Source of the DNA: an uncultured Pseudomonadota bacterium | GTDB lineage: Bacteria; Myxococcota_A; UBA796; SXON01 | Assembly: GCA_903921785.1 (NCBI GenBank) | Contig: CAIXRH010000275.1 | Span: 1 to 32,484 of the forward strand | Direction: 5' to 3' | Length of the DNA: 32,484 bases | Part shown: positions 29,137-32,484 of the stretch, in pieces | Layout of the letters: each line of letters starts with the position of its first letter | Position numbering within the stretch: position 1 is the stretch's first letter | Notes under the pieces: model-generated | The model's input: the letters and a program-made list of their open reading frames with translations, nothing else | Told to the model about the DNA's origin: nothing | Database searches by the model: none | Made by a program: the position numbers and the translations under genes

Positions 29137-29511
29137 TTACGCCAAAGCCACCGCCGCGCGGGCCGCCAGCGCGCGCGCCGCGAACGCGGGATGCGCTTGC
29201 ACGTCGCCGCCGAACTCCGGCGCCACCTCGACCAGCCGCAGCGCCAGCGCGAGCCGCGCCGGCATCACGTCCGGGGGCGGGTTCCCGAACCCGGAGAGCG
29301 ACCGGTCGAGCAGCTCGTCCAAGGTCGGAGACGCACCCGTAGACCAGGCGTCCATCAGCAGGTCGCGCAGGAGGCCGACGTGCCCGCCTCGCCCCGTCAG
29401 CCCGGCGCGCTCGCAGATCGCGCGCGCCAGCTCTCCCGCCAACCACCGCCGACCGCGTACGCCGACCCCAGCCGGTGCGGCGAGGAGGCGATTGGCGTTG
29501 ATCGGGGCCAT
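29137..29511 (-). CDS. Small helical protein at the end of the ACP/reductase cluster
   Basis: The 124-residue product starts at ATG 29511, 13 nt after the reductase stop. It is almost all alpha-helical, Ala/Leu/Arg-rich, with two amphipathic blocks (RRWLAGELARAICERAGL and ARLALALRLVEVAPEFGGDV). No signal peptide and no membrane segment are seen. I recognise no family. Its position suggests a function with the acyl carrier protein and reductase, but a chance open frame in high-GC DNA cannot be ruled out. Confidence 0.45.
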   Translation of the reverse strand: MAPINANRLLAAPAGVGVRGRRWLAGELARAICERAGLTGRGGHVGLLRDLLMDAWSTGASPTLDELLDRSLSGFGNPPPDVMPARLALALRLVEVAPEFGGDVQAHPAFAARALAARAAVALA

Positions 29512-29524
29512 GGCCCCGGGTCGG

Positions 29525-30421
29525 TCAGCGCGGGCGCAGCTTGAGCTCAGGCGGTTCCACGACGATGCCGTGGCGCGTGGCGGCCTCGCCGAACCCCCGC
29601 ACCGTGTCCGCCGAGAGGGCCCGGCCGTTCTGCCACGCCGCCGCCCGGCCCTCCAGAAGCTGAACCAGGGGCTCCAGGAGGCAGGCGTAGACGTGGTCGA
29701 CACCGTAGCCCGCGACAACGTGGAAGATCCAGCCCCAGGCGTCGCGAGACCAGCCCTTCGGGAGCGGGAGGCGCTCGCCGGGGACCACCTTCACCCCGGG
29801 GCCGGCCGGACCGCTCAGCGTGGGCGGCAGCGCCACGTCGATGAGGGTGGTGCCCGGGGCGAGGCGGTCCGGCGCGACGGTGCCACCGGTGGTGTGGGCG
29901 CCCACCACCACCGGAAACTCCCGCAGGTCCTGTGGATCTGCGACCGCGCCGAGCAGCTCCACGAGCGCGCGCCCGACGGTGCCTCGACCGCCCACCACGG
30001 CGGTCGGACGGTCGCCCCGGACCGACTCCGTGAGCTTCCACGCCGCCCACGCCGTGGCGGCGTTGCCGGTGGTGACGGGGAGGCCACACCGTTCCTGGAG
30101 CGCGGTGCCGCGACCCGCCACGACGGACAGAACGCTGCCGAGGCCAACGGCGCCGACAGGACCCGCCACCTGCACCGCGCGGTGCATGCTCCGGAGCGCC
30201 GCCTCCTGGTCGGCGAGCAGCTGCGCCGGGAGCATGGGCACACCCACGATCACCCCCTCGATCCCCCGGAAGTGCAGGGTGGCGAGGACGTCGCAGTCGT
30301 CGGGATCGGTGCCGTCGCGGGCGCCGGTGGCCACGCCAAACCGCGCCGTACGCAGGCCCTGGAGCCGCTGCGCGAGCGGCACCAGCGGGTGCACGAGGAA
30401 GGCGAACCGCGGCACCGCCAC
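29525..30421 (-). CDS. Acyl-ACP reductase (AAR)-like oxidoreductase
   Basis: The 298-residue product aligns by eye along its length with cyanobacterial long-chain acyl-[acyl-carrier-protein] reductase (about 341 aa), which makes fatty aldehydes from acyl-ACP with NADPH. Matching blocks are LPAQLLADQEAALRSMHRAV, LPVTTGNAATAWAAW (TTGN conserved), AVVGGRGTVGRALVELLG (Rossmann loop, 142-158) and HVYACLLEPLVQLLEG. The last carries Cys247, in line with the catalytic Cys294 of the Synechococcus enzyme. The C-terminal GEAATRHGI also matches. It is about 40 residues shorter, mainly at the N-terminus and around 160-220. The gene starts 9 nt after an ACP gene, which supports an ACP-bound substrate. No aldehyde-deformylating oxygenase is in the window. 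A FolD/shikimate-dehydrogenase-like role is a weaker alternative. Confidence 0.65.
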   Translation of the reverse strand: MAVPRFAFLVHPLVPLAQRLQGLRTARFGVATGARDGTDPDDCDVLATLHFRGIEGVIVGVPMLPAQLLADQEAALRSMHRAVQVAGPVGAVGLGSVLSVVAGRGTALQERCGLPVTTGNAATAWAAWKLTESVRGDRPTAVVGGRGTVGRALVELLGAVADPQDLREFPVVVGAHTTGGTVAPDRLAPGTTLIDVALPPTLSGPAGPGVKVVPGERLPLPKGWSRDAWGWIFHVVAGYGVDHVYACLLEPLVQLLEGRAAAWQNGRALSADTVRGFGEAATRHGIVVEPPELKLRPR

Positions 30422-30430
30422 GGGGCGGAC

Positions 30431-30862
30431 CTACCCGCCCGCTTTCTGCGCGAGCAGGCCCTGGACGATGTTGTAGAAGGTGCCGACCCGAAGCAGGGTG
30501 CCCACCTCGGAGACCTTCATGCCGGTGCGAAACTCGGCAGGCGGCACCTCGGGCATCGCCTCCGCCAGGCGGTCGAGCGCGGCGCGGGTGAGCACGCCGC
30601 CCACCTCGTAGGCTTCGTTCTCGCCGAGTCCCTGCCGCCCGGTCTGCTCGATGCCGCCACGGGGGATGCGGATGTCGAACGCGCGCTCCAGGCGGAACGC
30701 GATGTCGAGGAGGTCGAGGCTCTCCGCGCCGAGGTCCCCGAGCACGGAGGAGTCGAACGCGACGTCGCCCAGCGAGAGGCCCAGCGCGTCGGCGAAGGCG
30801 CGGCGCACCTTCTCCAGCACAGCGACATCACACTCGTCCTCGGTGGCGACAGGCTTGAACAT
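30431..30862 (-). CDS. Long acyl carrier protein
   Basis: The 143-residue product carries an ACP domain in its first 75 residues: VLEKVRRAFADALGL, then DSSVLGDLGAESLDLLDIAFRLERAFDIRIPRG, with the phosphopantetheine-accepting Ser48 in GAESLD. This is the DSL-motif region with Glu in place of Asp. Helices II and III look normal. Residues about 85-143 are an added helical tail (LTRAALDRLAEAMPEV, VGTFYNIVQGLLAQKA), unlike housekeeping AcpP (about 78 aa). The start is ATG 30862 with GAGGAG four nt upstream. It lies between a ketosynthase-like gene and the reductase, so it probably carries their acyl chain. Confidence 0.88.
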   Translation of the reverse strand: MFKPVATEDECDVAVLEKVRRAFADALGLSLGDVAFDSSVLGDLGAESLDLLDIAFRLERAFDIRIPRGGIEQTGRQGLGENEAYEVGGVLTRAALDRLAEAMPEVPPAEFRTGMKVSEVGTLLRVGTFYNIVQGLLAQKAGG

Positions 30863-30935
30863 GGAGCTCCTCGGCGGCGCCCCCGCCTAGCCCGCCAAGG
30901 GGACGGCCGCCACGGGCGAAGAGGCCCACCGGCGC

Positions 30936-31685
30936 TCAGCCGACGGTGAGCCCGCCGACCCCCACCGGCCCCCCGGCCAAGAGCGCGCGAACCAGCGCGA
31001 CCGGCACGGCCGCCGCCCCGAGCTCCCCGACGGGATCCGCGGCGTGCGGAGCCACCGGTACCCCGGAGCGGACCCGGCGCCCGGCGAGCGGGAGCACGCC
31101 CTCCGCGACGAGCACCACGAACGCGGCCCCCTCTGCGCACGGCACCCCCAGCACCGGCTCGGCGCCGAGCAGCGCATCGGCGCCGCCGGCGATCGCCACG
31201 TCCACCCGGCCCTCCGCGAGGGAGTGGACCGCGTTGGTGAGCGCGACCGCGCCGCCGAGGCGACCATCGCACCAATTGCCGTTGTCCCCCCGCAGGTCCA
31301 AAAGCGCGCTCGCGTAGCCGAGGACGTTGTTGGAGAGCCCCTTCACCAACCACAGCGGCGGCACCATCGGGATGCCGCGCTCGGCGAACGCCTGGAGGTC
31401 GGGCACCGGACCCGAAGCCTCGATGGCCATGGCGAGGTCCTCCACGTCGCCCTGTTGGGGCGAAGCGCCGACGAAGAGCCCGCGCCGTTCAGGGGGGACC
31501 GCCGCCCACCCCGGGACCCCGGCGACCGCCGAGAGCACCGCCGCCACCCCGAGCTGCACGGCGCGGGTCATCGTCTTGAGCGACTTCCGGGGCAGGCCCG
31601 CCGCGAGCGGATCGAAGCCCGGGACGGGGAGTCCGGGGCCCGGGGAGACGTAAAGCGCATGACCGACGAGGAGGACGTTCCGCAC
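30936..31685 (-). CDS. Half-length beta-ketoacyl-synthase-like protein
   Basis: The 249-residue product matches only the N-terminal half of a ketosynthase (full enzymes about 410 aa). Recognised blocks are RRGLFVGASPQQGDVEDL, PPLWLVKGLSNNVLGYASALLDLRGDN (like the NMAAGHISIxxGxxGP segment) and LAEGRVDVAIAGGADALLG. Counting back from the GG of AIAGG, the nucleophile position falls on Arg142; Cys139, three residues earlier in NWCDGR, is the only nearby cysteine. The C-terminal domain with the two catalytic His is absent. It is therefore probably not a condensing enzyme but a chain-length-factor-like or scaffold partner. The start GTG 31685 lacks a Shine-Dalgarno and is 31 nt from the divergent GTG 31717. 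It is the first gene of the ACP/reductase cluster. Confidence 0.72.
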   Translation of the reverse strand: MRNVLLVGHALYVSPGPGLPVPGFDPLAAGLPRKSLKTMTRAVQLGVAAVLSAVAGVPGWAAVPPERRGLFVGASPQQGDVEDLAMAIEASGPVPDLQAFAERGIPMVPPLWLVKGLSNNVLGYASALLDLRGDNGNWCDGRLGGAVALTNAVHSLAEGRVDVAIAGGADALLGAEPVLGVPCAEGAAFVVLVAEGVLPLAGRRVRSGVPVAPHAADPVGELGAAAVPVALVRALLAGGPVGVGGLTVG

Positions 31686-31716: not shown

Positions 31717-32484
31717 GTGCTGCTCGCCCTCTTCCTCGCCTGCCCCGGCTCCACCGACTCCGCCGATCCTGACGACTCCACCGGCGACTCGGGGGACAGC
31801 GGCGACGCCGCAACCCCGCCGATGGACGCCTCCCACCTCGTCGTCGACGGGCTCGCCGGCAGCGCCACCGGCTTCGCGGTCGCCATGGGCCCCGACACGG
31901 ACGGCGATCGCGGTGCCGCCGCGTGGATCGCGGGGGACTACGTACACCAGGTGTGCCGCTTCGAGGGGCAGTCCGGGCACCTCACCCTCCCGGATGGCGC
32001 AGCCTGCATCCACAGCGCAAACCTGGACTATCCGGGGTACGGCCTCGGCGTGGGCGCCGAATGGGTCGGCCTCGGCGCGATCGGCGGCGCCGCCGGCGGC
32101 ACCTACACCGGCAGGGTGTACCTCCTGGCGCAGGACATCGCTCCCGGGCTCCACGAAGTCGACGAAGCGGCGGTGACGCTCGAGGGAGAGTCCGCGGGCG
32201 ACTACGCGGGGACCACGGTGGCGTTCCTCGGCGGCGGCGGGGCGGACAGCGTAGTCGTCGGGGCCCCTGGCAACGACGCGAGCGGCGCGGGCGCGGGCGC
32301 GGGCCGGGCCTACCTCTGGCCGGAAGGCGTCGGGCTCCTCAGCGGGTCCGTGGCCGAGGCGCCGCTGATCATCCAGGGCACCAGCCCCCCGTCCGCGCTC
32401 AAGCATGGCGCCCCCGAGGCCGGCGACGGCGTGGGGAGCGTCGCCGCGAACGCCGGCGACCTCGACGGCGACGGCCTCGACGAC
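31717..32484 (+). CDS. Lipoprotein with FG-GAP/integrin-like repeats, cut by the window end
   Basis: The frame from GTG 31717 is open to base 32484 (256 codons, no stop), so the gene continues beyond the window. The N-terminus LLALFLACPGSTDSAD is a signal peptide with a lipobox-like FLAC (Cys9), followed by an Asp/Ser/Gly linker. The rest shows FG-GAP-type propeller blades: GFAVAMGPDTDGDRGAAAWIAG, YAGTTVAFLGGGGADSVVVGAP, and at the edge VGSVAANAGDLDGDGLDD, with Ca-binding DxDGDGxDD loops. The complete protein is probably a secreted or surface beta-propeller. No catalytic motif is visible in this part. Confidence 0.8.
   Translation, partial: MLLALFLACPGSTDSADPDDSTGDSGDSGDAATPPMDASHLVVDGLAGSATGFAVAMGPDTDGDRGAAAWIAGDYVHQVCRFEGQSGHLTLPDGAACIHSANLDYPGYGLGVGAEWVGLGAIGGAAGGTYTGRVYLLAQDIAPGLHEVDEAAVTLEGESAGDYAGTTVAFLGGGGADSVVVGAPGNDASGAGAGAGRAYLWPEGVGLLSGSVAEAPLIIQGTSPPSALKHGAPEAGDGVGSVAANAGDLDGDGLDD

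Follow-up and report, generated by a model that had tools for sequence, protein, structure and literature searches.

The system reported here has its nearest described relative, judged by parts list and not by alignment with the Kec sequences, in the koreenceine (kec) pathway of Pseudomonas koreensis. That cluster encodes an ACP, two ketosynthase (KS) genes each accompanied by a partial KS (chain-length factor, CLF) and ketoreductase functions, and its chain has been proposed to be released as an aldehyde by a reductase resembling cyanobacterial acyl-ACP reductase (AAR), which forms the C-terminal domain of the aminotransferase fusion KecF (PMC6498172). Two other AAR-like enzymes have been characterized. 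For PigE there is evidence of thioester reduction, and its Cys296 overlays Cys294 of AAR (PMC8341465), while TamH reduces C12-ACP, not C12-CoA, with NADH (PMC9594044). Reductases of the AAR type that act on ACP-bound chains have therefore already been described or proposed outside cyanobacteria, namely PigE, TamH, and KecF. A precedent for reduced KS partners comes from aryl polyene synthesis, in which ApeC is a half-size CLF that is C-terminally truncated and has no catalytic cysteine, and in which the KS/CLF pair containing it is active (PMC8358021).

Here we describe a locus at positions 29137–31685 of a 32,484-nucleotide stretch of DNA (the window), which is an entire contig of a 7.48-Mb assembly whose genome is 96% complete. 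The features are:

30936..31685, minus strand: P0001, half-size ketosynthase-like subunit of the CLF-B type (249 aa; PF00109, 2.9e-7)
30431..30862, minus strand: P0002, long ACP, apparently dedicated to the system (143 aa; PF00550, 1.5e-8)
29525..30421, minus strand: P0003, acyl-ACP-reductase-type thioester reductase by profile and fold matches (298 aa)
29137..29511, minus strand: P0004, 124-aa protein with no assigned function and no Pfam or NCBIfam match

We interpret this locus as the reductive-release end of a dedicated, aldehyde-releasing type II fatty-acid or polyketide synthase, a reading to which we assign a probability of about 0.68. Like the koreenceine system, it would combine an ACP, two KS/CLF pairs, ketoreductase functions, and an AAR-like release enzyme. 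However, the KecF reductase is fused to an aminotransferase within one cluster, whereas P0003 is free-standing and has a long ACP as its partner. In the window's lineage the genes are scattered, and the reductase has no aminotransferase tied to it. A literature search returned no account of this arrangement from the lineage, which weakly suggests that it is new.

Conservation of the locus

All four open reading frames are intact and lie on the minus strand, as the sequence-only reading of this DNA had placed them. P0001–P0003 are under purifying selection and not chance open reading frames, because their orthologues in genus-mates are 67–86% identical with dN/dS values of 0.12–0.37. P0004 lies downstream of P0003 on the same strand as the reductase; its homologues were found at five loci only, all within the genus (48–52% identity), with dN/dS values of 0.45–0.63 that denote weak constraint, and its membership of the system is uncertain.

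Divergent from the half-KS gene, a gene for an FG-GAP repeat protein (window 31717–32484) is cut by the contig end, and the same arrangement is present in genus-mates. Plasmid homologues were sought for P0001 and P0003 and none were found, and a contig scan for the system recovered two loci only, both apparently from genus-mates. A public contig labelled Klebsiella pneumoniae (L032) carries the system at 73% identity; the label looks wrong, and the contig apparently corresponds to the same-genus contig G220:C100.

The reductase and its nucleotide-binding domain

Searches of P0003 with direct family models gave no match in Pfam and PigE alone, below cut-off, in NCBIfam. A profile built from 34 relatives and searched against the PDB recovered PigE (4ppm, E 3.8e-49), whose N-terminal domain is the closest solved sequence relative, as well as cyanobacterial AAR (6jzq, E 3.7e-23). 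The AlphaFold (AF2) model of P0003 (pLDDT 94.1) matched AAR 6jzu with a Z of 28.9 and an rmsd of 2.9 over 283 aligned residues and the carmabin TAD with a Z of about 25, against about 9–10 or less for malic enzyme and FolD-type folds. Homology and modelled fold together mark P0003 as a genuine AAR-type thioester reductase, bearing out the relationship to the cyanobacterial enzyme that had first been proposed, and its profile matches place it nearer the PigE reductase domain than cyanobacterial AAR. An identity as FolD or shikimate dehydrogenase, named in the sequence-only reading as an outcome that would count against it, was rejected, since similarity to such folds is distant only.

The cysteine that had been singled out as catalytic in type, Cys247, is invariant in all 34 relatives and aligned with the AAR Cys294 site, in an FAC..E / YAC..EP segment; we predict that it is the acyl-accepting residue. 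The TTGN motif noted at the same time is present at residues 117–120; among the relatives its TTG core is conserved apart from three S/T swaps, but its asparagine is not. P0003 thus shares with cyanobacterial AAR (6jzq/6jzu) the fold, the position of the catalytic cysteine, the glycine-rich nucleotide motif (here GGRGTVG), and the TTG motif. It differs in its identity of only ~20%, its shortened Rossmann domain, its dedicated adjacent ACP, and its want of an aldehyde-deformylating oxygenase (ADO) partner. It also differs in that TIGR04058, the NCBIfam AAR model, had no match in the window's genome at E 10; with the same model one control genome scored over cut-off, and Synechococcus was among the matches. 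PigE and TamH, the latter acting on an ACP-bound chain with NADH, are both fused to aminotransferases, whereas P0003 is a single free-standing domain.

The nucleotide-binding segment, measured from the glycine motif to the next conserved motif of the reductase, spans 69–71 residues in families f24 and f46, 56–63 in other relatives from the order, 42–44 in other genera of the window's family (f1), and 37 in the window's genus. Compared with relatives outside f1 (37 vs. 56–71 residues), P0003 is without 19–34 residues of this domain, so that its cofactor binding and activity are uncertain. A DP motif is conserved in the shortened segment across the window's family. An acidic residue ending the second strand is commonly a mark of NADH use; because of this residue in the DP motif, and in line with the NADH-specific TamH, P0003 probably uses NADH.

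The half-size ketosynthase and the carrier protein

P0001 comprises the N-terminal thiolase half of a KS and a short C-terminal remnant, and the active-site histidines are lost. Its AF2 model (pLDDT 90.6) matched FabF with a Z of about 24 over 234–236 residues, aligning with FabF over its N-terminal half and its last strands. Arginine occupies the position of the catalytic cysteine, which is R/E/G/A/S across the family. In many relatives, P0001 homologues lie directly downstream of an intact FabF-like KS (KS-B) that keeps Cys/His/His. In a tree of N-terminal halves, a second half-KS grouped with CLF-A (support 98/94) and P0001 with the full-length, Cys-less CLF-B (support 100/98); because of the latter grouping, P0001 is best classified as a truncated CLF-type subunit without the catalytic cysteine. 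The half-length KS-like protein of the sequence-only reading is therefore real but no lone oddity, being instead, by this classification, the truncated partner of a catalytic KS whose gene lies elsewhere; likewise, the proposed trio of KS half, ACP, and reductase exists but appears to belong to a larger type II synthase.

P0001 resembles the CLF of ApeO-ApeC (PMC8358021) in its half size, in keeping the first thiolase fold with the second nearly lost, and in having an intact KS partner. However, its truncation derives from a full-length CLF that is still present in other families. A search of the PDB with a P0001 profile gave no sequence match to ApeC at E 1, and ApeC was not among the structural matches listed for P0001.

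In P0002, Ser48 in the GAESLD motif is invariant in 33 sequences, as expected from the initial assignment, and is the predicted phosphopantetheine site. A C-terminal extension of ~60 residues is conserved across the 33 homologues. The ACP gene lies immediately upstream of the reductase gene, on the same strand, at 34 of 35 loci; this arrangement identifies P0002, to judge from gene order and sequence, as an ACP dedicated to the reductase system, and it upholds the earlier suggestion of a dedicated carrier in a non-cyanobacterial setting.

A proposed dispersed synthase across the order

The more distant families f24 and f46 carry a cluster encoding FabZ, KS-A, CLF-A, KS-B, FabD, full-length CLF-B, and FabG. 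In both, the ACP-reductase pair lies at a separate locus; in f24, CLF-A and KS-B form a fusion. KS-A and KS-B keep Cys/His/His, and both CLFs are without the cysteine. Koreenceine-type parts (ACP, two KS/CLF pairs, and an AAR-like release enzyme) are all present in the window's genome, on three contigs: KS-A, half-CLF-A, and FabZ at G000:C125, KS-B at G000:C193 (602–1756), and half-CLF-B, ACP, and reductase in the window. Because of this dispersal, their joint action is inferred. A search of the window's genome for a stand-alone FabD like that of the cluster found none; cluster FabD matched only inside open reading frames of 1080–3362 codons (G000:C25, C195, C347, and C50), through an assembly gap or in reality.

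Among 58 relatives from the order, reductase and half-KS occurred together in 37, the reductase alone in 5, the half-KS alone in 2, and neither in 14 (Fisher 1e-7, and 2.4e-4 outside family f1, in a test that ignores shared ancestry). Of 379 genomes sampled in the phylum, 61 matched the reductase profile, among them 22/22 of the window's family. The set turns up repeatedly within one bacterial family and in much of the order that contains it, and AAR-type chemistry would be a conserved trait of this non-cyanobacterial lineage, with the reductase in every family genome sampled. As the reductase is tied to a full dedicated set of chain-building enzymes, a class of compounds can be sought. Moreover, the gradation in CLF length down to half size, and in the reductase down to its shortened form, offers natural intermediates with which to explore the minimal CLF and the minimal nucleotide-binding domain.

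Some neighbouring genes were observed in relatives. An MbnH-family di-heme enzyme gene (L146:2863–4059) adjoins FabZ of the f46 synthase cluster, and within the family half-CLF-A is followed directly by a gene for a Ser/Thr protein kinase (L117:9234–10955 and L044:3715–6009); this kinase might regulate the synthase.

Proposed mechanism and fate of the aldehyde

We infer that KS-A and KS-B, encoded elsewhere in the genome, form heterodimers with Cys-less CLF-type subunits, P0001 being the putative partner of KS-B. These KS/CLF pairs would assemble a chain attached to P0002, the long dedicated ACP. P0003 would then take the acyl group from this ACP onto Cys247 and, with NAD(P)H as reductant (probably NADH), release it as a free aldehyde. 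The broader proposition, which we hold at even odds, is of an undescribed reductive type II synthase that is widely conserved in one order and in two families besides. It would consist of two KS/CLF pairs, a dedicated long ACP, and a free-standing acyl-ACP reductase, and would yield a specific aldehyde-derived lipid or metabolite; in the window's lineage its CLFs and reductase would have become smaller step by step. We identified no enzyme that would act on the aldehyde downstream. An alkane pathway was rejected because ADO (PF11266) had no match in the window's 96%-complete genome.

P0003 could instead be a general long-chain acyl-ACP reductase that draws on primary fatty acid synthesis and supplies ether lipid or plasmalogen formation with aldehydes or alcohols, with the KS parts adjusting chain length only. 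Its AAR homology would suit such a role, as would the two genes of the plasmanyl-desaturase type (PF10520) that the window's genome carries, and for Myxococcus xanthus the route from fatty acid to alkyl ether lipid has yet to be worked out (PMC9131029). We nevertheless consider this unlikely, given the long, dedicated form of the ACP, the co-occurrence of the reductase with KS/CLF parts, and a search of the window's genome that found no wax ester synthase. Furthermore, PF10520 genes occur in 10/22 family genomes vs. 22/22 for the reductase, a distribution that does not track the system; ether lipids, the role suggested from the sequence alone, are possible as a destination but are not supported as a conserved one.

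We give similarly little weight to an amine or alkaloid pathway like those of koreenceine or tambjamine, in which the aldehyde would be transaminated by an aminotransferase encoded elsewhere. The nearest characterized reductase relatives (PigE, TamH, and KecF) are indeed fused to aminotransferases, and in genus g2 an aminotransferase gene adjoins the ACP-reductase pair, but across the system such a gene is neither fused nor consistently adjacent, and the g2 enzyme most closely resembles amino acid aminotransferases of the YbdL type and not those of class III. The g2 order of aminotransferase, ACP, reductase, and epimerase, which resembles a serine palmitoyltransferase cluster, also raised a sphingolipid idea, rejected because the aminotransferase is YbdL-like.

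Least probable of all is that the window's copy is catalytically degenerate, its shortened reductase and half-KS being non-catalytic acyl-ACP binding or regulatory proteins: the stepwise shrinkage of the nucleotide-binding segment and the disappearance, in the same lineage, of the C-terminal half from CLF-B would fit, but Cys247 and the glycine motif are kept, the reductase has a dN/dS of 0.17–0.32, and the aryl polyene KS/CLF is active with its half-size CLF.

Related reductases were also seen in other contexts. In another family of the phylum, a 646-aa protein (L133:40–1980; G376:C9) contains an AAR/PigE-like reductase domain at residues 260–570, preceded by an N-terminal part without assignment. 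Within the same order as the window, a divergent AAR-like gene overlaps an ADO-like gene by 4 bases (L132:6027–7777; G074:C54), scoring 110.7 bits with TIGR04058 and 41.9 bits with TIGR04059, both below cut-off; by sequence similarity, this pair is a possible alkane-type operon outside cyanobacteria.
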